From IMG/VR virus record IMGVR_UViG_3300048694_000652, positions 1 through 45,266 of that record: a stretch of 45,266 nucleotides of DNA. The stretch is one strand, 5' to 3'. Positions within the stretch are counted from its first letter, which is position 1; every line of letters starts with the position of its first letter. Below are positions 1,230-38,584 of this stretch, one piece after another. Under the pieces are notes generated by a model that made no database searches, was not told where the DNA came from, and worked only from the letters and a program-made list of their open reading frames with translations. The position numbers and the translations under genes are program-made. Source of the stretch: a virus.

Positions 1230-1861
1230 TGTCTCAATGGAACAAATTTCCAGGTAGTTATATCGGGTTTAACAGAGTTTCTGCTTCCGATGGAGCTAGT
1301 GGTGTTTGGAATTTGAAACAAGTATATACTGAAAATACTAATTATGAATGGATTAACCAATCGATTTATTATAATCCATGTGATAGTATGACAGGTTGGT
1401 CAAATAATGGAGTATATTCATCTAATGGAAATTTTTATGTTGGTGGTAATTCATATTGTTATATAGAACCAATTGCTGGACAAAATTTATTATATTCTAC
1501 TCTTTTATTTGATGTTTATATACCAACAAACAGTGCTGTTGCTGTTAATTTTATGTGCGCAACAACTGGCCAAGGACCATATTTAAAATTCGATACACGC
1601 GCAGGAAAATATACTGGTGTATCATACTCTAGAGGTTGGACACAAGTTGGCGGAGAGTTAACTTCAGGGCCTGTAACCCCAGTAAATACATGGTTTAATG
1701 TTAGAATTCGTATGTATAATTCTGCACGCATTGATTGGTTTACTGAAAATCAGTATAGAGATTTTCAACCTGTTCTTAATAATGGAACTAATATTGGATT
1801 TTGGGGTTATGGTTTGGGTGGATACATTGATAATGTTACTATTAAAAGAGGTATTATTTAA
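1229..1861 (+). CDS. Concanavalin/LamG-like tail protein
   Basis: A 210-residue aromatic- and Asn-rich beta protein. From about residue 45 the pattern suits a jelly-roll, LamG-like lectin fold: alternating strands, a WFNVRIRMYNSARIDWF segment and a closing GGYIDNVTIKRG strand typical of the last LamG strand. No catalytic residues are apparent. It sits between a small virion protein and a Gly-rich adhesin, with one-base stop/start overlaps on both sides. A glycan-binding or fibre-tip role is therefore likely but inferred from fold and context. Confidence 0.55.
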   Translation: MSQWNKFPGSYIGFNRVSASDGASGVWNLKQVYTENTNYEWINQSIYYNPCDSMTGWSNNGVYSSNGNFYVGGNSYCYIEPIAGQNLLYSTLLFDVYIPTNSAVAVNFMCATTGQGPYLKFDTRAGKYTGVSYSRGWTQVGGELTSGPVTPVNTWFNVRIRMYNSARIDWFTENQYRDFQPVLNNGTNIGFWGYGLGGYIDNVTIKRGII

Positions 1862-3060
1862 TGTATAATGGTGGAATAATTGGTAAAAAAAATCTACCAA
1901 CATATTTTAATGGTAATGGTATTAGAAATGCCAGAGAAGTTAGAAACTTCTTGGAAGATGGGTTATGGCATTTTGATGCTGCAGTGACTGCTAATGCATC
2001 GTCATATACAGAAGGCGATTCAATCTCAATATCAATTAATACTACTGGTTTACCCGATGGTACCAATCTGTATTGGACTGTTAATACGTTGAGTGGTACT
2101 ACACTTTCAACCGCTGACTTTACAGATAAAGTATTGGATGGAACAGCAAATATAGTTAATAATACTTATAATACTACAAAAAAATTCGTATCTGATAGAA
2201 TTCCAGATGGTAATAGACAGTGGACAGTAGTATTTAGAACAGAGTCTATTGCTGGACCAATTATTGCATCAACTCCTGTATTGGCTTTGAATGACTATGT
2301 ACGAGGAGGAGATGCAGTATTTGATCGTAACGGTTATCGCTATCATAAATTTACTTATTCAAATTGGATTTATACTGCTAAGAATGTTCCATGCGAAGTA
2401 TTAGTAGTTGCTGGTGGTGGAGGCGGCGGCGGTAATGGTGGTGGCGGTGGTGGAGCAGGCGGTTTAAGATGGGACAATGTAACTATTCCGGCTAATCTTA
2501 GTGGAAGATGGGTCCAAGTTGGTGGCGGTGGCTCATGGTCTGGCGGTGGCAATAATGGTTCTGACGGCGGAAGTTCATACATTGATGGTGTAATAGGATG
2601 CACTGGCGGTGGTGGTGGAGGTTCACGTGATGGTGGATCTGCGGGTCGTTATGGTGGTTCAGGCGGTGGCGGCGGTGGCGGTGGAGGCGGTAGAGCTGGC
2701 GCAGGTAATCCAGTTCCTGGTGAAGGTAATTGGGGTGGTAGTGGATATGATAATGGAACTTCTTCAGCTGGTGGGGGTGGAGGAGGAGCAGGAGGTGCAG
2801 GTGGTAATGCTGGATCACGCGCTGCTGGAAATGGTGGTCCTGGAAGAGGTATTGACTTTGCTCGCGATGGAACTACTGAATATTATGCTGGTGGGGGTGG
2901 AGCTGGTCGTACGTATTATGGTACTGCTGGCTCAGATGGTATTGGTCAAGGTACTAGTAGAGGTTCTGGAGGTCATGGCGAATCAGGAGGTACTGCATAT
3001 AGAGCAGGATCAAATGGAGATTCTGGAATTGTGTTTATTAGATATGTTATTCCAACATAA
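1861..3060 (+). CDS. Glycine-rich tail adhesin with N-terminal Calx-beta-like domain
   Basis: A 399-residue, two-part protein. After an N-terminal segment that may be a docking peptide, residues about 42-145 look like a Calx-beta/Ig-like domain of the type seen in viral fibres (SYTEGDSISISINTTGLP, then YWTVN, TADF and a closing LALNDY). From about residue 150 a W-x-x-P strand (VPCEVLVVAGGGG) opens a very Gly-rich domain with runs of GGGGG, ending in DSGIVFIRYVIP. This is the Gly_rich_2 type of layout, related in style to gp38-like adhesins whose polyglycine helices present receptor-binding loops. It likely forms a fibre tip. Long open frames on the other strand and in other frames here are by-products of Gly codons. 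Confidence 0.75.
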   Translation: MYNGGIIGKKNLPTYFNGNGIRNAREVRNFLEDGLWHFDAAVTANASSYTEGDSISISINTTGLPDGTNLYWTVNTLSGTTLSTADFTDKVLDGTANIVNNTYNTTKKFVSDRIPDGNRQWTVVFRTESIAGPIIASTPVLALNDYVRGGDAVFDRNGYRYHKFTYSNWIYTAKNVPCEVLVVAGGGGGGGNGGGGGGAGGLRWDNVTIPANLSGRWVQVGGGGSWSGGGNNGSDGGSSYIDGVIGCTGGGGGGSRDGGSAGRYGGSGGGGGGGGGGRAGAGNPVPGEGNWGGSGYDNGTSSAGGGGGGAGGAGGNAGSRAAGNGGPGRGIDFARDGTTEYYAGGGGAGRTYYGTAGSDGIGQGTSRGSGGHGESGGTAYRAGSNGDSGIVFIRYVIPT

Positions 3061-6831: not shown

Positions 6832-7200
6832 ATGTCTCATGTAATTGGCGCTAGTGCTGAAGGTTTTGCAAACCTAGATGAAAGACCACGTTATTACTAT
6901 GGTCTTCGTCGTGATGAAGAGGGAACTCTTTGGCTAGGTTCAGCAGATATTAAGAATCCAAATGATACAGTTCGTTTGTATTCTGAACCTTTAACACGCG
7001 ATGGTGGATTTTCACCAATTCCATTTCATGAATTTTTTAATCAAAGAGAACTTTATGATACAGATGCTTCTAATCCAGAAGAGGCGTTATATTATCAACA
7101 GTGGCGTATTGATAGAGTTAAAATTTCGTACTACATCGACGAAAATGGCGAATTTGTAGCATCAGTTGGTGCTGACAGAAACTATCCAACCGATGTCTAA
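6832..7200 (+). CDS. Conserved virion-region protein of aquatic T4-like phages
   Basis: A 122-residue protein with a distinctive conserved start, GASAEGFANLDERPRYYYGLRRDEEGTLW, and end, YYQQWRIDRVKISYYIDENGEFVAS followed by NYPTDV. I know this pattern from fibre-proximal genes of marine T4-like phages; its function is not established. The gene directly precedes the 1124-residue fibre, so it is probably a virion component at the fibre base. An AT-rich gap with AATAAATA (one mismatch to the late octamer) follows it. Confidence 0.6.
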   Translation: MSHVIGASAEGFANLDERPRYYYGLRRDEEGTLWLGSADIKNPNDTVRLYSEPLTRDGGFSPIPFHEFFNQRELYDTDASNPEEALYYQQWRIDRVKISYYIDENGEFVASVGADRNYPTDV

Positions 7201-7234
7201 TAAATAAAATAATACAAGGTAACGAGGACCAAAC

Positions 7235-10200
7235 ATGGCAGAATTTAAACTTGGTAGACTAAAGTTCTGGTGGAAGGGCGAATGGCAAACTGGCCAAGCT
7301 TACGTTAAGGACGATGTAGTTCGTTTTGGCGGAAAGTCATATGTTTGTACAGGCGCACACACATCAGGTTCAAATGATGAGAGCTTTTATACTGCTCTCG
7401 AAACAGCTCCATTCAAATGGGAGTTGATGACTGATGGTATTTCATGGCAAGGACTATGGACAACTGGCACATACTACAAGGTAGGTGATGTAGTTAAGTT
7501 TGGTTCTGATTCATATATCTGTATTAATGGTAACACTGCTGGTGCAGATTTCTTAGCAGATCAAGATGTTGGTAATTGGGATAACTTTGTTAATGGTGTT
7601 GAATTAGAAGGCGATTGGTCTTCTTCAGCTGCGTATCAAGTAGGTGATATCGTTCGTTATGGTGGTTACACATATCTAGCTAAGCAAGATAATACTAATG
7701 CTTCTCCAGAAACAGATACTACATCTTGGGGTATCTTTGTATATGGATTGCGTCAACGCGGAGCTTGGTCATCATCAACAACATATCATCCAGGTGATGT
7801 AGTTAAGAAAGCATCTTCTTCTTATAGTGCTAAGCAAACACATACAAATCATGATCCTTCTAATGATATCTCTGAAACATATTGGCAAAATCTTGTTCAG
7901 GGTTCAGATTCATCAGTAATTACAACTAAAGGCGATTTACCAACATATGGTACTAGCGGAGCAGTTCGTTTACCAGTTGGTGGTAGTGATGCTGTTCTTC
8001 AAGTAGATAGTACTACTGGAATTCCAGCTTGGAAAACTAGTGTTAATATTCCAGGCGATTTAACAGTTAGCGGCAATGCTCATATTGTTCAAGGTGAAGT
8101 TTATCAGGGAAACAATGCACAAAGTTTAGAAGTAGACGTTGGCATTTACGATATCTCTACACAAATTACATCAGCATCTAAAACTCCTGGTGTATTGAAA
8201 TTTAATTATTCAGCTGGTTCACAATTAGCTAGTGCTGCAATTGGTTGGTCTGTCACTATCTCTGGTCTTCCAGATCCTAATACTGTTGCAAATAGTACTT
8301 TTACTATTGCAAGTATTAACACCACTTCTAGATTTATTACTATGAACGTGGCTGGTTTAACCGGCACATCTGCAGTATGGTTAGGTAATGCAGGTGATTT
8401 AAATGTTCAGTTAAGAACACCAACTGCATATAAAGGTATTACTAATGCATCTGGTGTATTCGTTAAAAATGCTGATGACTTCGTTCAATTCGCTCTTAAG
8501 AATACAAATAACGGTAGCGCAGCTTCTACTGACTTGATCGTTTATGCTGATAATGGTGATAATGAATCCGGTTGGATGGATATGGGTATCACATCTTCTG
8601 GTTATGGTTCTCCAGACTGGACAGTAACTAAGAATAATGATGGTTACTTATTCTGTAATGCTCCTGTTGGCACAACCGGTAATGGTGACTTAGTTATTGG
8701 TACCGGTGGTAATGGTGCTCATAATGATATTACATTCTTTACTGGTGGTTTTGATGCTTCGCAGATTAAGATGAAGCTTATTGGTACAGCTCGTCCAGAA
8801 ATTCAAGCATCTACTGGTATACCAACTGGTAAAACAATAGAACCAGGTGTTGAAATCTACCTAGATTCTGTTGCTGAAGCATATGATCAAGGAGCTTTAC
8901 GTATTACTGGTGGTCTTGGTGTTCAAGGTAACATCATTACTAAAGGTGATCTTCGCGCTGAAATGGGTATGATTACTCAGGGTTCGAATGCTAAGCGTTT
9001 AACCGAAGATAACTATTCATATACTGGTTATACTGGTATAACAAATGCATCTGCTATCATGACAGGCAATGCTAATGACTTTGTTCAGATGGCATTAAAG
9101 AATTTTAATACTGGTGCATCAGCTTCTACTGACTTGATCCTTTATTCGTCTAAGGGCGATAATACTTCAGGTTGGATTGATATGGGTATTTGTTCTGAGA
9201 ATTATAACGATCCAAGCTATGGAGTAACAAGCAAAGGCGACGGCTACATTTTTATGTCAGCTAAGGCTGGTTCTACAGATGAAAAAGGTAATTTATACTT
9301 ATCTACATCTGGTTATGGTACAATGAATGATATCGTGTTCTCAACGGGTGGTTTTGCTAATAGCTCATTTGAAAGAATGCGTATTATTGGTACATCACGC
9401 TCAGGACATCAACCTGGTGTTGAAATTTATTCAACAAGTCAATCAACAAGTACAACAACTGGTGCGTTACGTGTTCAAGGTGGTATCGGTCTACAAGGTA
9501 ATTTAAACGTTGGTGGTTCTGTTAATATTGTTGGTGATACAACAATTCAAGGTACGATTGTTATTGCTGGTGGTTCAACAACTGTTACATCACAAAACTT
9601 AGCTGTTTCTGATCCTCTTATCTTCTCAGGTGATGGTAACTCTTCAGATCTAGTTGATTTAGGCGCAGTTGGTTCTTATCGCGCAGCAGCAGATTCATAT
9701 ACATCTGCAGCACTATCCGGAGCCACTATTACTACTTCAGGAGCAACTGTAAACATCTATAAAGTTGGCCATGGTGCTCAATCTAAAGACACAATTACTA
9801 TTAGCGGTGTAACAAATCAAACATCATATAATGGTACATATACAACAATTACAATTGTTGATGCGAACAACATTACAGTAACAAAAGTTGGTGGAACATT
9901 TACTGGTGGTTTAATTGGTGGTACTGCTACATTAAATACATTTGTTAATGGTTTACGTTATGCTGGTTTAGCGCGTGATCACATTGATGGTCGTTATAAA
10001 CTATTTACAGCATATCAAGTATATAATAAACCAAGTACTACTATCACATTTGCTAACACAACAAAGGCTGTATTTGATTGCGGTGCAATTTATGCTGGTG
10101 GTTCAGTTACATCTACTGGTGCAGCAGTATTCAGTGGTACAGGTGCATCTTCCTTTGGTGGTGCAGGTAGTTTTGCTGGCGATGTAAGTTTAGGCTCTGG

Positions 10201-10609
10201 TACAGCAACATCAAGTTATACAACGGGTGCATTAAAGGTTTCTGGTGGTGTTGGTATTACTGGTGGTTTATATGTCCAGAACGCTTCATTCTTCGGTAAT
10301 GATATTACTGCTTGGTATTCTTCTGACCGCGATCTAAAAACTAATATTACACCTATCGCTGGTGCATTAGATAAGATTGCTCAGATTGGTGGTTACACAT
10401 TTAATTGGAAACCAGAAGCAGATAAAGGTGAAGCACACGATGTTGGTGTTATCGCTCAGGAAATTCAAGCTGTACAACCAGAAGTTGTTGTTAAGCGTGA
10501 TAATGGATATTTAGCAGTTAATTATGAAAAGCTTGTTCCTCTATTAATCCAAGGTATTAAGGAATTACAAGAGGAAGTTAAAGCTCTTCGTGCAAAAGTT
10601 GGAGCATAA
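7235..10609 (+). CDS. Long tail fibre with carbohydrate-binding-like repeats and C-terminal S74 chaperone
   Basis: A 1124-residue modular fibre. Residues about 12-230 hold four ~54-residue repeats of the type W-x-G-x-W-x5-Y-x2-(G/D)-D-V-V-x7-Y, resembling small chitin/carbohydrate-binding (CBM5/12-like) modules. Two ~120-residue modules follow (about 398-518 and 598-719), both starting GITNAS and ending IGT, so they are an internal duplication. Three GAL(R/K)-x-x-GG-x-G linkers punctuate the shaft. Residues about 1030-1124 are an S74 intramolecular chaperone: SDRDLKTNITPI, then YTFNWKPEA, HDVGVIAQEIQAVQPEVV, YEKLVPLLIQGIKELQ and a final coiled coil. S74 domains drive trimerisation and then cleave themselves off near the SD. 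The three adhesin genes follow at once, fitting a fibre with separate tip proteins. Confidence 0.88.
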   Translation: MAEFKLGRLKFWWKGEWQTGQAYVKDDVVRFGGKSYVCTGAHTSGSNDESFYTALETAPFKWELMTDGISWQGLWTTGTYYKVGDVVKFGSDSYICINGNTAGADFLADQDVGNWDNFVNGVELEGDWSSSAAYQVGDIVRYGGYTYLAKQDNTNASPETDTTSWGIFVYGLRQRGAWSSSTTYHPGDVVKKASSSYSAKQTHTNHDPSNDISETYWQNLVQGSDSSVITTKGDLPTYGTSGAVRLPVGGSDAVLQVDSTTGIPAWKTSVNIPGDLTVSGNAHIVQGEVYQGNNAQSLEVDVGIYDISTQITSASKTPGVLKFNYSAGSQLASAAIGWSVTISGLPDPNTVANSTFTIASINTTSRFITMNVAGLTGTSAVWLGNAGDLNVQLRTPTAYKGITNASGVFVKNADDFVQFALKNTNNGSAASTDLIVYADNGDNESGWMDMGITSSGYGSPDWTVTKNNDGYLFCNAPVGTTGNGDLVIGTGGNGAHNDITFFTGGFDASQIKMKLIGTARPEIQASTGIPTGKTIEPGVEIYLDSVAEAYDQGALRITGGLGVQGNIITKGDLRAEMGMITQGSNAKRLTEDNYSYTGYTGITNASAIMTGNANDFVQMALKNFNTGASASTDLILYSSKGDNTSGWIDMGICSENYNDPSYGVTSKGDGYIFMSAKAGSTDEKGNLYLSTSGYGTMNDIVFSTGGFANSSFERMRIIGTSRSGHQPGVEIYSTSQSTSTTTGALRVQGGIGLQGNLNVGGSVNIVGDTTIQGTIVIAGGSTTVTSQNLAVSDPLIFSGDGNSSDLVDLGAVGSYRAAADSYTSAALSGATITTSGATVNIYKVGHGAQSKDTITISGVTNQTSYNGTYTTITIVDANNITVTKVGGTFTGGLIGGTATLNTFVNGLRYAGLARDHIDGRYKLFTAYQVYNKPSTTITFANTTKAVFDCGAIYAGGSVTSTGAAVFSGTGASSFGGAGSFAGDVSLGSGTATSSYTTGALKVSGGVGITGGLYVQNASFFGNDITAWYSSDRDLKTNITPIAGALDKIAQIGGYTFNWKPEADKGEAHDVGVIAQEIQAVQPEVVVKRDNGYLAVNYEKLVPLLIQGIKELQEEVKALRAKVGA

Positions 10610-10611
10610 TA

Positions 10612-11283
10612 ATGACAGTTCGTTTAACACAAACTGGGGTTGAATACCCAGATGGTACAGTACAAATCCAGCGATTTGATTCGAACGATGATAGCGGTGG
10701 ATTATTACAAATTGCAACATATACTGGCAGTAGTACTTGGTATAAACCAGCTGGTACACGCCAGATTCGTGTATTAGTAGTTGGCGCAGGTGGAGGTGGT
10801 TGTGGTCACACTGAATCGGGCGGTGCTGGCGGATTCGCTGAAAAGTGGATTGATACTTCAGGTTGGGCAACTAATACAGCTGTATCAGTAAGTATTGGTT
10901 CTGCTGGTGATGGTCGTAACTATTTCCAGGGCTGTGGTAGTGGCGGAACATCGTCATTTGGTTCATATGTAAGTGCTTCCGGTGGTCAAGGTGCTAATAC
11001 AAACTGGGGTCATTCTGGCGGTCATGGCGGTGTAGGTTCCGGCGGAGATATTAACCTTCGTGGTGGTGGTGGTCATGGACATGATAATGAAGCTGCTTCA
11101 CAGGGTGGCACAGGATATTTTGGTGGTGGATCTTTTGGTAATCACCACAGCTATCGTCCGCACTACGCTGAAGGTACAAACCATACTGCACCTGGTGGTG
11201 GAGGAGCTGGTAATTGGATTACAAATCATGGACGCGGTGCTTATGGATCAGATGGCATGGTTGTTGTCTACAGTTACGCTTAA
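10612..11283 (+). CDS. Glycine-rich adhesin, copy 1 of 3
   Basis: A 223-residue protein, first of three tandem paralogs. A ~50-residue N-terminal part (MTVRLTQTGVEYPDGTVQ, then STWYKPAGTRQIRVLVVGAG) leads into a Gly/His-rich domain with GGHGGVGSGGDINLRGGGG shared by all three copies, and a closing RGAYGSDGMVVVYSYA. The W-x-x-P strand followed by a polyglycine array is the Gly_rich_2 style and recalls gp38-like tips of T4-type fibres. It starts two bases after the S74 fibre. The segment around residues 165-195 (GNHHSYRPHYAEG) is the least conserved, as expected for receptor contact. Confidence 0.72.
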   Translation: MTVRLTQTGVEYPDGTVQIQRFDSNDDSGGLLQIATYTGSSTWYKPAGTRQIRVLVVGAGGGGCGHTESGGAGGFAEKWIDTSGWATNTAVSVSIGSAGDGRNYFQGCGSGGTSSFGSYVSASGGQGANTNWGHSGGHGGVGSGGDINLRGGGGHGHDNEAASQGGTGYFGGGSFGNHHSYRPHYAEGTNHTAPGGGGAGNWITNHGRGAYGSDGMVVVYSYA

Positions 11284-11301: not shown

Positions 11302-11967
11302 ATGACAGTAAAATTAGGTCAAACTGGATTAACTTATAATGACTCTTCAGTACAAACTAGTAAATACGATACATCTTTAGACAAAGGTAAAATTCTAAGG
11401 GTTGACTTTTGGACTAGTAGTACTACTTGGAATAGACCAGCCGGTTGTAGAAGAATTTTAGTTCAAGTTATTGGTGGCGGTGGCGGCGGTTGTGGTCACT
11501 GTGAAGCTGGTGGTGGTGGTGGATTTGCTGAAAAAGTTATTGACGTTACAAACGTCACATCAGTAACAGTAACTATTGGTGGTGCTGGTGATGGTCGTGG
11601 TTATCATCAAGGTTGCGGCGGAGGAGGTACTACATCATTTGGTGGTTATCTATCTGCCTCTGGTGGCAATGGAGCTAATACTTGGGGTTCACATACCGGT
11701 GGTCATGGTGGTGTAGGTTCTGGTGGAGATATTAACTTACACGGTGGCGGTGGAAGATCACACGGAGATCAAGGACAATCAAAAGGTGGAGAAGGATATT
11801 TTGGTGGTGCTAATGTATCTGGTCACCATGGTGGAAATTTCTATTCGCATTGGTCAGAAGGTTTAAATCACTGTGCTCCAGGTACTGGAGGATCAGGAGA
11901 ATGGACATCACACTCTAGAGGTGCTTATGGTGTTCAAGGTTGCTGCATCGTATATAATTATAGTTAA
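11302..11967 (+). CDS. Glycine-rich adhesin, copy 2 of 3
   Basis: A 221-residue paralog of its neighbours. The layout is MTVKLGQTGLTYNDSSVQ, then STTWNRPAGCRRILVQVIGGGGGG, GGHGGVGSGGDINLHGGGG and RGAYGVQGCCIVYNYS. Cysteines are more frequent than in copy 1 (CGHCEAG, CGGGG, NHCAPG). The divergent loop here is GHHGGNFYSHWSEGLNH. An AGAGGA ribosome site precedes the ATG. As the middle of a tandem array it is probably expressed together with the others as a fibre-tip or tail-tip adhesin. Confidence 0.72.
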   Translation: MTVKLGQTGLTYNDSSVQTSKYDTSLDKGKILRVDFWTSSTTWNRPAGCRRILVQVIGGGGGGCGHCEAGGGGGFAEKVIDVTNVTSVTVTIGGAGDGRGYHQGCGGGGTTSFGGYLSASGGNGANTWGSHTGGHGGVGSGGDINLHGGGGRSHGDQGQSKGGEGYFGGANVSGHHGGNFYSHWSEGLNHCAPGTGGSGEWTSHSRGAYGVQGCCIVYNYS

Positions 11968-11979
11968 GAAGAGATTAAT

Positions 11980-12642
11980 ATGTCAGTAAAATTAGGTCAA
12001 ACAACTGTCACTTTTCCAAATTCATCAACTCAATCTACTAAATATGATTCGAATGATGATGTTGGTCAATTGATGAACATCCAAACATGGACTGGTAACG
12101 GAACATGGACAAAACAAGCAGGTTGTAGAAGTATACGTGTTATGCTTTGTGGCGGAGGCGGTGGTGGTAGTGGTCATGGTCAATCTGGCGGTGCTGGTGG
12201 ATATTCTGAAAAACGAATCGATGTATCTAGTTGGGCTGTAGGCACTAACGTTAGTATTACAATTGGTGGACAAGGTAGCGGAGCTCACTCAAACGACGGT
12301 GCCGGCACTGGTGGTACTACATCATTTGGCAGTTATTTGTCTGCCACTGGTGGTCAAGGTGCTAATAGTGTTTGGGGTCATTGTGGAGGTCACGGTGGTG
12401 TAGGTTCTGGTGGAGATATTAACCTTCGTGGCGGCGGTGCTTCAGGACATGATAACCGTGGAGGACGTGGTGGTGCATCATTCTTTGGTGGTTCTAAATT
12501 CTCAGGTTGGCCAAATCATCACTTCTCACATCAACATGAAGGACATGTTCCTCCAGGAGCTGGTGGCTGTGGTGAACACGTTAATCATTCACGCGGTGCA
12601 TATGGTGCATCTGGAATTTGTATAGTATATAACTATAATTAA
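11980..12642 (+). CDS. Glycine-rich adhesin, copy 3 of 3
   Basis: A 220-residue third paralog: MSVKLGQTTVTFPNSSTQ, NGTWTKQAGCRSIRVMLCGGGGGG, GGHGGVGSGGDINLRGGG, RGAYGASGICIVYNYN. Its variable loop is GWPNHHFSHQHEGH, with many His residues. The N- and C-terminal frames are nearly those of copy 2, so copies 2 and 3 may be the more recent duplicates. It is followed by an AT-rich weak hairpin with a T-run and then the halogenase gene. Confidence 0.72.
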   Translation: MSVKLGQTTVTFPNSSTQSTKYDSNDDVGQLMNIQTWTGNGTWTKQAGCRSIRVMLCGGGGGGSGHGQSGGAGGYSEKRIDVSSWAVGTNVSITIGGQGSGAHSNDGAGTGGTTSFGSYLSATGGQGANSVWGHCGGHGGVGSGGDINLRGGGASGHDNRGGRGGASFFGGSKFSGWPNHHFSHQHEGHVPPGAGGCGEHVNHSRGAYGASGICIVYNYN

Positions 12643-12674: not shown

Positions 12675-14297
12675 ATGCACATTAAAAGTGTTTTGATTGT
12701 TGGTGGTGGTAGTTCTGGTTGGATGACGGCAGCGGCCCTCAAAAAACAATTACCACATATCGATATTACTTTAGTTGAGTCTGATAGAGTTCCAACTATT
12801 GGAGTAGGAGAGTCTACTATCGGACAAATTAATAGCTATATGATGGCTATTGGTTTAAAAGATAAAGATCATGAATGGATGCCGCAATGTAATGCAACAT
12901 ATAAAACATCTATTCGCTTTACTGACTTTAGAGAAAAAAATGAAAAACCAAATACTTTTCACTATCCATTTGGAGTATTTGATTTAACTGATAAAGAGCG
13001 TGGAACAATGGATTGGTTCTATATGCAATTAGAAGACCAATCAATTCCACCAGAAAATTTTGCTGAATTTTATCATGATCATGTCATTATGGCAAATCAA
13101 TTGAAATTTACAAAAAATGAAGATCATGTAATTCGTGGATTTAATTTTAAGTTTGACACTGCATATCATATGGATGCGGCATTGTTTGGTCAATACTTAA
13201 AAAATAATATTTGTATACCTGAAGGTGTAAAGCATATAGTTGATGATGTAACAGGTGTTATACAAAATGAAGATGATTACGTAACAGGTGTAACAACTGC
13301 TACTAATGGTGTTTTAAAAGCCGATTTATACATTGATTGTACAGGTTTTAAATCGATGTTATTAGAAGGCGCAATGGGAGCAGAATTTGTTTCTTTTCAT
13401 GATACACTAATGAATGATAGCGCTATTGCAACTGTTATTCCTTATTTAGATAAAGATAAGGAAATGTCAAGCGTTACAAATTGTACTGGTATCGATGCTG
13501 GTTGGGTATGGAATATTCCATTATATAATAGAATCGGTACTGGTTATGTCTATTCTTCAAAGTTTGCAACTAAAGAAGAAGCAGAAGCGCAATTTCGAAA
13601 ACATTTAGCTTCAGATAGAATGGATTATGTTGGAGAAGGATCTAAAGAGCGTGCTGAACAAGCAGAATTTAGACATATAAAGATTAAACATGGATGTCAT
13701 AAACGTTCGTGGATTAAAAATGTAGTAGGTGTAGGTCTTGCTAATGGATTTATTGAACCATTAGAATCTACTGGATTAATGTTAACGCATGAAGCTATCA
13801 TGAAGTTAATTGATACACTTGATATGCGAGATGGTAAAGTTAATCAATATGATATCGATGCATTTAACTTTGCATTATTTGATCAAACTAAAGGATTTAA
13901 AGAATTTATTTCATTACATTATGCATTATCTGTTCGTGATGATACACCATACTGGAAGCATGTAACCCAAGAATTTACATATTCTCCAAGTATGATAGAA
14001 TGGCAAGCTTTAATTCGTAATCCATATGCTGACTTATCTTATAGAAATCTAGTTAATCATACATATGGACCGGATCAAGGTGGTATAATTTATATTGCTG
14101 CAGGGCATGGTTATAACCCTCTTTCCAAAAGATGGATTGATGATGAAGCGCAGCGTTTTAATATAAATAGAGGTTATAATTTAAAGAAAGTAAGAGAAGA
14201 TTGGGAAAATCACGTAAAAGAATTACAACTTTCACTTGATAAACTTCCAACTCATTATCAATGGTTAAAACAACATTATTACAATAATCAGGAGTAA
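12675..14297 (+). CDS. Flavin-dependent tryptophan-halogenase-like enzyme
   Basis: A 540-residue member of the tryptophan halogenase family, which uses reduced FAD, oxygen and halide to form hypohalous acid and halogenate aromatic substrates. Visible motifs are the FAD-binding GGGSSGW near residue 10 and a conserved GVGESTI. Also present are the catalytic lysine K77 in NATYKTSIRF, the halogenase signature W277-x-W279-x-I-P, and E364-S-T-G in FIEPLESTGLML, which binds halide and shapes the active site. Length is normal for the family. Such genes are known in marine T4-like phages; the enzyme of cyanophage Syn10 (VirX1) has been shown to iodinate substrates. No flavin reductase is seen nearby, so reduced FAD would come from the host. 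Substrate and halide are unknown. The location directly after the adhesins suggests a virion or surface target, which is inference. Confidence 0.88.
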   Translation: MHIKSVLIVGGGSSGWMTAAALKKQLPHIDITLVESDRVPTIGVGESTIGQINSYMMAIGLKDKDHEWMPQCNATYKTSIRFTDFREKNEKPNTFHYPFGVFDLTDKERGTMDWFYMQLEDQSIPPENFAEFYHDHVIMANQLKFTKNEDHVIRGFNFKFDTAYHMDAALFGQYLKNNICIPEGVKHIVDDVTGVIQNEDDYVTGVTTATNGVLKADLYIDCTGFKSMLLEGAMGAEFVSFHDTLMNDSAIATVIPYLDKDKEMSSVTNCTGIDAGWVWNIPLYNRIGTGYVYSSKFATKEEAEAQFRKHLASDRMDYVGEGSKERAEQAEFRHIKIKHGCHKRSWIKNVVGVGLANGFIEPLESTGLMLTHEAIMKLIDTLDMRDGKVNQYDIDAFNFALFDQTKGFKEFISLHYALSVRDDTPYWKHVTQEFTYSPSMIEWQALIRNPYADLSYRNLVNHTYGPDQGGIIYIAAGHGYNPLSKRWIDDEAQRFNINRGYNLKKVREDWENHVKELQLSLDKLPTHYQWLKQHYYNNQE

Positions 14298-14830: not shown

Positions 14831-14852
14831 ATTAAAATTATAAAGCATATAT

Positions 14853-14884
14853 AAAGGGAGATTAGTAATCTCCCTTTATTTTTT
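14853..14884 (+). terminator. Rho-independent terminator
   Basis: An 11-bp perfect stem (AAAGGGAGATT at 14853-14863 pairs with AATCTCCCTTT at 14867-14877) has a three-base loop and is followed by ATTTTTT. It closes the transcription unit that includes the halogenase and the 175-residue gene. Confidence 0.88.
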
Positions 14885-16187: not shown

Positions 16188-16195
16188 TATAAATA
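16188..16195 (+). promoter_or_regulatory. T4-type late promoter (TATAAATA)
   Basis: An exact octamer lies in the gap after the U32-like gene (context TTATAAATAG). The expected start near 16201 leaves a leader of about 28 bases before the ATG at 16229. It would drive the second fibre and neck block. Confidence 0.7.
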
Positions 16196-17908: not shown

Positions 17909-18343
17909 ATGACAGATTTAGTACAAGCACTTCGTAAAGTTTTAACATCTAATTTTGTGTTATATCTAAAAACACATATGTTTCATTGGAATGTAGAGTC
18001 ACAAAATTTTGCAGAATATCATGGATTTTGGTCTGACGTATATGATGATCTTTGGGATCAAACAGATACATTAGCAGAATATATTCGTCAAGAGGGAGAA
18101 TATGCTCCAGGTGCTTTAAGTGTATATTCTAGTGAATCTGTTATTAAAGATGAAGATGGATTTCCATCTGCACAACAGATGTTTTCAAAATTTTTAACTG
18201 ATAATCAGACTATTATCAGTTTATATGAAGATCTTTATCATAAGGCTGAAGCAGCACATGCCCATCAAATTTCAAATTATTGTGCTGATAGACTTGGTCA
18301 ACATAAGAAATATGCTTGGATGGTTAAGTCATTCTTAAAATAA
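17909..18343 (+). CDS. Dps-like mini-ferritin
   Basis: A 144-residue four-helix ferritin-like protein of the Dps type. Ferroxidase ligands of the family are visible with correct spacing: H26 in HMFHWNV, H38 (12 later), D53 (27 later) and E57 (31 later, LAEYIR). The position normally held by a further Asp is Ser42, with Asp next to it. Dps proteins form 12-mers that oxidise and store iron and protect DNA from peroxide; some also bind DNA. There is no long basic N-terminal tail, so DNA binding would have to be by another route. It sits between a fibre and neck gene 13. Whether it is virion-borne or acts in the cell is not shown. Confidence 0.75.
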   Translation: MTDLVQALRKVLTSNFVLYLKTHMFHWNVESQNFAEYHGFWSDVYDDLWDQTDTLAEYIRQEGEYAPGALSVYSSESVIKDEDGFPSAQQMFSKFLTDNQTIISLYEDLYHKAEAAHAHQISNYCADRLGQHKKYAWMVKSFLK

Positions 18344-18355
18344 TAAAGGCAAAAA

Positions 18356-19093
18356 ATGGCAATTCCAACAAATAGACAAGAATTAAAGGATTATTGCTTA
18401 AGAGCATTGGGTTCTCCCGTGCTTGAAGTTAATATTGATGATGATCAGTTAGACGATCGTATTGATGAGGCGCTTCAAAAATATTATGACTATCATTATG
18501 ATGGACAACGAAGAGTTTATATCCCAGTTCAAGTAAGTGAAATTGATATAGCAAATGGCTATTTAACTTTATCAGACGATGTAATTTCTGTACAACGTAT
18601 TTTACCGTTAACTGCTGCATGGTCAAGCATTAATATGTTTAATATGAAGTATCAAATGTATATGAATGACTTTTATGCATTGTATCGTGCAGACTCAATG
18701 CAATATTATGTTGAAATGCAACAATATCTTTCAACATTAGATTCTTTATTAAATGGTGTTCAGACAGTTCAATACCAACGTCATGGTAACAGATTATACA
18801 TTGAGACTAAGTGGAGTGAAAAAGTCCAAGCAGGTCAATATATTATGGTTGAAGCATATCAACGTGTTAATAATCCAGAAGTGTGGAATGATTTCTGGTT
18901 AAAGCGCTATGCAACATCTCTAATTCAATTCCAATGGGGTGCAAACCTAGCTAAATTCGATGGTATGCAATTACCAGGTGGTGTTACAATTAATGCTCGT
19001 CAATATATCGATGATGCTGAAGGTGATATTCGTGATTTAGAGAAAGAATTAAGAGATACACATGAATTGCCAGTAGACTTTTTCTGCGGATAA
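18356..19093 (+). CDS. gp13: Neck protein gp13 (head completion)
   Basis: A 245-residue homolog of T4 gp13, which with gp14 completes the head-tail connector after DNA packaging. The recognisable start is TNRQELKDYCLRALGSPVLEVNIDDDQLDDRIDEALQ, followed by YYDYHYDG and a C-terminal WNDFWLKRYATSLIKFQWG-like segment with LPGGVTINARQ. It is shorter than T4 gp13 (about 309). It is followed 12 bases later by gene 14, the usual pair. Confidence 0.9.
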   Translation: MAIPTNRQELKDYCLRALGSPVLEVNIDDDQLDDRIDEALQKYYDYHYDGQRRVYIPVQVSEIDIANGYLTLSDDVISVQRILPLTAAWSSINMFNMKYQMYMNDFYALYRADSMQYYVEMQQYLSTLDSLLNGVQTVQYQRHGNRLYIETKWSEKVQAGQYIMVEAYQRVNNPEVWNDFWLKRYATSLIQFQWGANLAKFDGMQLPGGVTINARQYIDDAEGDIRDLEKELRDTHELPVDFFCG

Positions 19094-34995: not shown

Positions 34996-35445
34996 ATGCT
35001 AACACTTGAACAAATACTTGAACATTGGAAAAAAGACTGTGAGATCGATGACATGGAGCTCGACAAGTCTTCGCGTGAAACACCTAAATTACATGCAAAA
35101 TATGTAGAATTGCTTTCAACTGCTAAATTACAAAAACATCGTAAAGAGATGGAATTTAAAAAGCTCTTGAAAGATAAGTTTATGTGGTATAACGGTAAGA
35201 TGGATAAAACTACAATGGATGAAAAGGGTTGGGAATATGACCCATTTGATGGATTAAAACAACCGCTTAAGAGTGATATGGATTATTATTATGAAAGCGA
35301 TCCACATATTCAAGCAGTTCAATCACAGATTGAATATTGGAAAACAGTGATAGACACACTATCAGAAATTGTTTCTAATATAACGTGGCGCCATCAAACA
35401 ATTGGTAATATGATTAAGTGGCGTCAATTTACTTCTGGTGTTTAA
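34996..35445 (+). CDS. uvsY: Recombination mediator UvsY
   Basis: A 149-residue homolog of T4 UvsY, which loads the UvsX recombinase onto ssDNA covered by gp32. Visible are the N-terminal LEQILEHWKKDCEID, then TPKLHAKYVELLSTAKLQ, FMWYNGKMDK, and the C-terminal IQYWK-like and WRHQTIGNMIKWRQFTSG ends. Length is close to that of T4 UvsY (about 137). It is followed by a small oxygenase-like gene and then uvsW. Confidence 0.9.
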   Translation: MLTLEQILEHWKKDCEIDDMELDKSSRETPKLHAKYVELLSTAKLQKHRKEMEFKKLLKDKFMWYNGKMDKTTMDEKGWEYDPFDGLKQPLKSDMDYYYESDPHIQAVQSQIEYWKTVIDTLSEIVSNITWRHQTIGNMIKWRQFTSGV

Positions 35446-35447
35446 TT

Positions 35448-36080
35448 ATGTTACCTACAATAATAATTGATGATTTTTTTCCTAACCCAGATATAGTAAG
35501 AGAATATGCATTATCCATTACTGAGTGGCATTATGATGATGAATTGCGCTGGCCAGGAATTAGAACAAATTGTTTACACACATTCGCATTAGAAAAACAT
35601 AGTGAATTGGTTGCATCAATCTATAATTGTTTACCACGTAATATTATAATGCGATATTCTGCATTTACAAAATTTGATGCTATGTTTCAAATAGTAAACG
35701 AGAATTATAATGATGGTTGGATTCATGATGATGGAGCAGATTTACATTTTGCAGGTTTAATTTACTTGAATAAAGATCCTGCTGAGAATAGTGGCACATC
35801 TTTGTATCATCACGTAACAGAAACATTAGAATATTTTGGTGATACTGAACGAGAATTAAAAAAGAAATTTTTAGCTCATCCAGAATATAGAAAAGATTAT
35901 GAAGAATTAAAAAATAATAGACATTCACAATTCAAAGAAGTAACCACTATTGAGAATGTATATAATAGATGCATAATATATGATGCACATGCATGGCATA
36001 GAGCAAACAATTATTTTGGAAAAACAAAGGATGATTCTAGATTATCACTAGTTTTCTTTGGTAAATTTGATAATGGATAA
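35448..36080 (+). CDS. 2OG-Fe(II)-oxygenase-like protein (DUF6445 type)
   Basis: A 210-residue protein from ATG 35448; a GTG at 35418 would overlap uvsY and add an unlikely leader. The pattern fits a double-stranded beta-helix oxygenase: IIIDDFFPNPDIVREYAL at the start, an H-x-D pair in WIHDDGADLHFAGLIYLN, SGTSLYHH, and a distal IIYDAHAWHRANNYFG with DDSRLSLVFFG, where the second metal His and the 2OG-binding Arg would lie. The family is frequent in cyanophages and marine phages; substrates are unknown. It overlaps uvsW by eight bases. Confidence 0.6.
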   Translation: MLPTIIIDDFFPNPDIVREYALSITEWHYDDELRWPGIRTNCLHTFALEKHSELVASIYNCLPRNIIMRYSAFTKFDAMFQIVNENYNDGWIHDDGADLHFAGLIYLNKDPAENSGTSLYHHVTETLEYFGDTERELKKKFLAHPEYRKDYEELKNNRHSQFKEVTTIENVYNRCIIYDAHAWHRANNYFGKTKDDSRLSLVFFGKFDNG

Positions 36081-37951: not shown

Positions 37952-38584
37952 ATGAAATTTGATTATTCTACACATGAATTTAAATCTCCTGGTTATATAA
38001 CTGCACGAGTACCAGCAGATATAATGATACCATTCAATAATGCAATTAAAGAAATTCAAGGTACAGGCACAGGAGAAGACGTAGCATATAAATTAGCTGG
38101 CCATTTAGATGATCAAATCAATTTAATTGACAGACAAGATTGTGTTAATGCTATTACTCCATTTGTTTATGATCTAGCAGAACGTTATAATTTACATTTT
38201 GACTATATGCGTAGGTTCCAAACTCGAGAAGATGATCAACGTTTATATTTGCAAGGATTATGGTTAAATCTGCAGAAAAAATATGAATTTAATCCACTCC
38301 ATAAACATGGAGGAGTTTATTCATTTGTTATATGGCATACTATTCCATATAATATAGATGACGAGATTAAGATGTTTAAGACTAAACATTCTAAAGCATC
38401 GATGTTTGAATTTGGGTATGTAGATACGCTGGGTTTACAGCAATTTGAATCTATTCCAGTAGATAAATCATTTGAAGGTTTAATTTGTTTTTTCCCAGCA
38501 GTGTTACATCATGGAGTTTACCCATTCTATACATCTGATGATAGAAGAATAAGTATAGCTGGTAATATGTATTTTAAATCTTAG
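37952..38584 (+). CDS. Putative 2OG-Fe(II) oxygenase
   Basis: A 210-residue protein with the 2OG-FeII_Oxy_5-like pattern: LWLNLQKKYEFNPLHKHGG (first metal His), SFVIWHTIPYN, FEFGYVDTLG, FEGLICFFPAVLHHGVYPFYTSDDRRISIAGN, where the distal His and the 2OG-binding Arg stand. Enzymes of this class hydroxylate proteins, nucleic acids or small molecules; phage members are common and mostly unassigned. It is the last gene before a regulatory gap of about 145 bases. Confidence 0.7.
   Translation: MKFDYSTHEFKSPGYITARVPADIMIPFNNAIKEIQGTGTGEDVAYKLAGHLDDQINLIDRQDCVNAITPFVYDLAERYNLHFDYMRRFQTREDDQRLYLQGLWLNLQKKYEFNPLHKHGGVYSFVIWHTIPYNIDDEIKMFKTKHSKASMFEFGYVDTLGLQQFESIPVDKSFEGLICFFPAVLHHGVYPFYTSDDRRISIAGNMYFKS

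Follow-up and report, generated by a model that had tools for sequence, protein, structure and literature searches.

A halogenase gene set among tail-fibre genes raises the question of what a phage would halogenate. According to published descriptions, no viral halogenase was known before VirX1 of cyanophage Syn10, which was also the first flavin-dependent halogenase with a preference for iodide, and the literature searched gives no native substrate for any viral halogenase. We address this question for a 45,266-base IMG/VR virus record, referred to here as the window. It contains a module of T4-like structural genes (for neck, sheath, portal, and major head protein), and its source is a virus of bacteria.

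The halogenase gene and its fibre-gene setting

The plus-strand gene at 12675..14297 encodes a protein of 540 aa that, judged by its catalytic set and full-length similarity, is predicted to be a complete flavin-dependent halogenase of the VirX1 group. It matches Pfam Trp_halogenase (E=7e-107) and the tryptophan halogenase family phrog_2928 (6e-148), and its top PDB sequence match is VirX1 (6qgm, E=7e-145), with which it aligns along the full length (query residues 2-539 against 3-530). The protein is 44.9% identical to the Syn10 record, and identity is 37-51% for its longest matches among cultured phages. The preliminary description had credited the enzyme with a complete catalytic set, and we found every motif in place: the dinucleotide-binding GxGxxG motif as GGGSSGW (residues 10-16), the WxWxIP motif as WVWNIP (residues 277-282, W277-V-W279-N-I-P), E364-S-T-G, which can be read directly from the protein, and K77, which together with E364 aligns with the catalytic Lys and Glu of VirX1. 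Across 25 relatives, K77, W277, E364, G10-G12, and G15 are invariant and W279 is conserved in at least 90%. The further claim that no flavin reductase is encoded nearby was also confirmed, as PF01613 has no match among 16 records (the window and 15 relatives). When Trp halogenases are aligned with the window protein, most local alignments stop at query residue 429-442, before their C-terminal part. Three other records (G008, G009, and G016, containing loci L263, L267, and L066) have up to five halogenase matches each, several in tandem; in both G008 and G016, one pair of matches could come from one gene that was split in the reading. The window enzyme adds a member to a group that is already known, and what is new is its genomic setting.

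Upstream of the halogenase lies a large plus-strand tail-fibre gene (7235..10609, 1124 aa) with CBM_5_12 repeats and a C-terminal Peptidase_S74 chaperone domain; its matches are PF02839 (2e-21), PF13884 (2e-18), phrog_8215, and phrog_9851. Three paralogous Gly-rich adhesin genes follow on the same strand, immediately 5' of the halogenase (10612..11283, 223 aa; 11302..11967, 221 aa; 11980..12642, 220 aa), each matching PF21722 and phrog_863. Only 5 nt separate the halogenase from the start of the next plus-strand gene, referred to here as C1 (14303..14830, 175 aa, phrog_1787, 1.6e-16). A T4-type late-promoter-like motif, ATAAATA (7200..7206, plus strand, a consensus match only), lies 28 nt 5' of the fibre gene and occupies the same place in the relative L014. 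An intrinsic terminator-like hairpin with a 13 bp stem and a T run (14851..14879, plus strand) closes the unit in the window, and no such hairpin is found at the equivalent place in L014. Beyond it are the plus-strand gene C9 (14900..16186, 428 aa, phrog_1458), the next non-coding late-promoter-like motif (16189..16195, plus strand, 3' of C9), and the gene for neck protein gp13 (18356..19093, plus strand, phrog_211, 1e-41), which forms the downstream boundary of the fibre-tip region. From these motifs, the fibre, its tips, the halogenase, and C1 read as a single late unit in the window. Two further genes of the region are a Ferritin/Dps-like gene (17909-18343, PF00210, 7e-21) between the fibre-type genes and the neck gene, and another Gly-rich gene (1861-3060, 27% Gly, phrog_2295) 5' of the fibre genes. 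The window contains only two genes of oxygenase families, both far downstream (35418-36080 and 37952-38584).

The ATAAATA motif occurs 14 times in the window against 25.6 copies expected in shuffles, and 8 of its 12 plus-strand copies lie just 5' of gene starts. We surveyed the 70 nt upstream of genes in 94 non-redundant loci and found the motif before 80% of gp13 genes, 46% of C1 genes, 22% of adhesins, 8% of halogenases, and 2% of oxygenases, compared to 0.9% of random positions. This pattern fits an operon of the late class that is read from adhesin or C1 promoters, and such motifs would group the block with the genes of virion assembly.

Fold and composition of the adhesins and their partners

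The adhesins are predicted to have a receptor-binding fold. The AF2 model of adhesin 1 (pLDDT 87.6) matched the fibre of cyanophage Pam3 (7ypx, E=1.4e-8) and the Bxb1 tail tip in Foldseek, and among predicted viral structures gp38 of Syn9 is nearest to it; the adhesins thus combine a Gly-rich domain with the fold of a solved fibre, as Gly-rich receptor-binding fibre tips do. The tail fibre gp24 of Pam3 shares this Gly-rich domain fold; receptor recognition in Pam3 is attributed to the Gly-rich and TNF-like domains, with the small gp25 as chaperone (PMC9608196). Unlike the window, the Pam3 system has no described halogenase. The Gly-rich fibre-tip protein gp38 of S16 is of similar size to the window adhesins but belongs to the T4-type gp38 adhesin family (PF05268, Pfam GP38), for which the window adhesins, members of PF21722, have no match.

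Each window adhesin contains 10-12 His, 5 Trp, and 6-11 Tyr, and the preliminary description had emphasized Trp and Tyr. That emphasis did not survive comparison of the Gly-rich domain with that of Gly-rich proteins from halogenase-free loci: Trp is equal (1.1%) and Tyr similar (4.9 and 4.2%), whereas His reaches 4.8% in the adhesins against 0.7% in those proteins and 1.3%, about four times less, in S16 gp38. We rejected Trp/Tyr enrichment accordingly. We also rejected His richness as a general mark of halogenase neighbours, as non-adhesin Gly-rich proteins near halogenases were not significantly richer in His than those of halogenase-free loci (p=0.09); the enrichment belongs to the adhesin family. 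One locus (L119:4220-5290 and 8510-9580) has repeated Gly-rich genes that are His-rich (5-6%) with no adhesin-profile match, one of them ending 418 nt from a halogenase.

Near-invariant adhesin positions are E68, Y104, F116, H134, and H157, and window adhesin 3 has no Tyr at the Tyr104 position. The conserved His residues or Tyr104 are candidates for the modified residues. The adhesin His could equally serve metal binding, by analogy with the His residues that bind iron in the tip of T4 gp37 (PMC6957217). Since NO66 recognizes NHXH (PMC4556315), we checked the adhesins for NHxxH; co-variation of this motif with a JmjC-type oxygenase was rejected, since the overall correlation had exceptions in both directions (the motif alone in L105, the enzyme alone in L115).

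In 77 loci, C1 lies close to adhesins and halogenase. The description of C1 as assembly-chaperone-like fits its position and size only, as C1 proteins have no match in Pfam, NCBIfam, or PDB, and we rejected C1 as a chaperone recognizable by sequence. Pam3 gp25 (about 162 residues or more) and C1 are both small fibre partners of similar size and place, although the sequence of C1 matches no PDB chain. By position and size, C1 is a fibre-associated protein and possibly a fibre chaperone.

C9 resembles peptidase family U32 in a low-confidence TIM-barrel AF2 model (pLDDT 63), whose top Foldseek match is the U32 protein Mk0906 (5d88, E=5e-7, TM 0.36/0.59), likewise TIM-barrel-like with conserved Cys. 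The C9 family has seven invariant Cys in its C-terminal half, among other invariant residues (alignment A4). Unlike Mk0906, C9 has no Pfam or NCBIfam match, the curated U32 profiles included. Proteins of this type lie near the halogenase in 29 loci, several of which have no oxygenase array. U32 proteins can act as oxygen-independent hydroxylases. That activity is also the topic of PMC10470549, and for C9 as a hydroxylase in the window's clade it is a lead only. Both this U32-like protein and the wider 2OG-Fe(II) oxygenase array of relatives were absent from the preliminary description.

Linkage of halogenase, adhesins, and C1 across phages

We clustered the genes around 127 halogenase loci. 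Of the 210 Gly-rich adhesin genes, which are spread over 77 loci, 204 lie upstream, and one family of 2OG-Fe(II) oxygenases comprises 276 genes in 88 loci; further oxygenase families near halogenases include a JmjC_2 family. Among the 61 loci that remained after removing redundancy at 95% and requiring flanks of 4 kb or more on each side, 46 have an adhesin or C1 within 5 kb of the halogenase, typically as a tandem Gly-rich adhesin array with C1, 7 have another fibre family, and 8 (S-B64, S-MbCM25, and others) have no fibre neighbours. Oxygenases are present in 49 of the 61. In seven loci (L088, L095, L099, L104, L107, L110, and L117), the place of the Gly-rich adhesin beside the halogenase is taken by a C1q-like tandem adhesin; these loci form one halogenase clade, the adhesin lies on the opposite strand, and several share upstream fibre genes. 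In the near-identical contigs L024-L030, a VirX1-type halogenase has other surroundings, with no adhesin array.

The linkage also appears when the search does not start from the halogenase. A C1 scan, for which a closer C1 set was used because an alignment of all C1 proteins is too diverse, returned 80 loci, 78 with an adhesin upstream. A halogenase is present in all 65 viral contigs with C1 called and at least 2 kb downstream, representing 38 distinct halogenases at 95% identity and 21 at 80%. These label-based counts share the halogenase seed because the labelling profiles were built from halogenase loci; searches of phage records with adhesin and C1 queries are independent of those profiles. 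Against 50,697 phage records, the adhesin query matched 19 and the C1 query 20 cyanophage records, with a halogenase in 19/19 and 20/20, counts that come from comparing match lists in which several records duplicate one phage. The C1 query gave one extra short match, in a Methylophilales phage. VirX1-type halogenases occur without C1 in 6 of 26 records (Sf-CH11, Sf-CH1a, and S-B64/S-H35 records), where the neighbours are oxygenases and other fibre genes in Sf-CH11 (L292) and recombination genes in S-B64. A gp13-anchored scan alone says little on the link because adhesin and halogenase are both missing from most of its rows that include an upstream flank.

Gene order is not fixed: adhesin-C1-halogenase, adhesin-C1-C9-halogenase, adhesin-halogenase-C1-C9, and a halogenase converging on C1 and adhesin were all seen, so the linkage survives reordering and inversion. 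The adhesin-C1 neighbourhood is common to the window and Syn9 (L002), a close relative of the Syn10 of VirX1. In contrast to the VirX1 arrangement, the window halogenase precedes C1 rather than following it, its partner is the U32-like protein, and no oxygenase array comes directly after it. A psbA gene (PF00124) was not detected in 15 long halogenase-bearing contigs (L014, L015, L043, L078, L239, L267, and nine more), some possibly fragments; many hosts may therefore not be cyanobacteria. The record of L133 contains psbA and a fibre locus without a halogenase.

Isolates of S-RIM44 allow a comparison within one phage. From fibre to neck, KX349291 carries three adhesins, C1, two halogenases, C3, six oxygenases, and C5, while KX349292 has one oxygenase and none of the adhesins, C1, halogenases, C3, or C5. 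The neck-to-head blocks of the two are 94.8-98.3% identical, compared to 65-70% for the upstream fibre shaft. Neck identity of 97.2% is common to six records (KX349292, three more S-RIM44 isolates, and two Syn1 records), none of which had a C1, adhesin, or VirX1-type match in the phage-record searches. A distant PrnA-type halogenase elsewhere in the S-RIM44 genome is kept in both isolate types. The adhesins, C1, the two halogenases, and most neighbouring oxygenases are thus present or absent as one block; in this single but clean comparison, the enzymes go with the fibre tip and not with the rest of the genome. Whether relatives also place the halogenase by fibre genes had been set beforehand as the test of the preliminary description, which passed it strongly in the halogenase-, C1-, and adhesin-anchored searches and in S-RIM44.

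Possible targets of the halogenase

We consider it somewhat probable that the VirX1-type halogenase acts on a fibre-tip protein during or after its folding or assembly, a reading we favour because of the reverse searches, the S-RIM44 block swap, and the late-promoter motifs. The FADH2-dependent enzyme would be produced along with the tail-fibre tip in the late phase of infection, with FADH2 assumed to come from a host reductase. Its likeliest target would be the tandem Gly-rich adhesins, on which the 2OG-Fe(II) oxygenases of many relatives may act as well, and the modification may tune receptor binding or stability. Linkage, swap, and motifs suggest, and do not prove, that the adhesin is the substrate. 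The RiPP halogenases SrpI, MibH, and ChlH, likewise flavin-dependent, are reported to act on ribosomal peptides (PMC10858898, PMC12518702), so protein substrates are chemically feasible; their targets are small peptides of natural-product pathways, whereas the candidate here is a virion adhesin. More tentatively, halogenase and oxygenases could form a cassette that remodels fibre tips with halogenated and hydroxylated His/Tyr and is swapped together with the tip.

VirX1 reportedly iodinates a wide range of aromatics, small and bulky alike (PMC8407142), and up to five halogenase matches per record could mean several substrates. Both would suit an enzyme acting on a small molecule or on a compound that diffuses or lies on the host surface (lipid, polysaccharide phenol, signal, or hypohalite chemistry), with a link to fibres only because enzyme and fibre both define the phage-host encounter. 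We regard this as rather unlikely, given that we saw no other biosynthetic or transport genes in the cassette, that late-promoter motifs accompany it, and that it follows fibre-tip type within sister isolates. Proximity alone is another conceivable cause, the stretch between fibre and neck collecting cargo so that the halogenase merely accompanies the adhesin. Cyanomyoviruses do have a hyper-variable region between g15 and g18 (PMC2984593), and oxygenases occur between fibre and neck without a halogenase (S-RSM4 L211; L131). Such hitch-hiking is nonetheless improbable in our view: co-occurrence had no exception in the reverse searches, linkage was kept through changes of order and inversion, and many gp13-anchored loci without adhesins are also without a halogenase. 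A role as an auxiliary metabolic gene that targets free tryptophan for halogenation, for instance in antibiotic protection of the host, follows the family annotation and a suggestion in PMC2984593, repeated in PMC9964418, but PMC2984593 itself called this speculative, and the fibre-tip linkage and the ending of most Trp-halogenase alignments near residue 430 make it very improbable; the preliminary view that free tryptophan is not the target is accordingly plausible, as the open active site and broad substrates reported for VirX1 (PMC8407142) also suggest.

Modification of a fibre-tip protein thus remains the reading we prefer. Cyanophage 2OG-Fe(II) oxygenases, which occur in clusters, have been assigned to DNA repair and to 2-oxoglutarate/nitrogen metabolism (PMC3037559). 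No link of halogenases or oxygenases to fibre tips appeared in the literature searched, which included few subscription papers and preprints, and the fibre-tip cassette, robust in our data, is apparently undescribed there. The linkage unites the puzzles of VirX1 and of the oxygenases into one question, namely whether receptor-binding proteins are modified. If so, phage host recognition would have a post-translational layer that is invisible to sequence-based host prediction, and phages might grip their hosts with amino-acid chemistry outside the genetic code.
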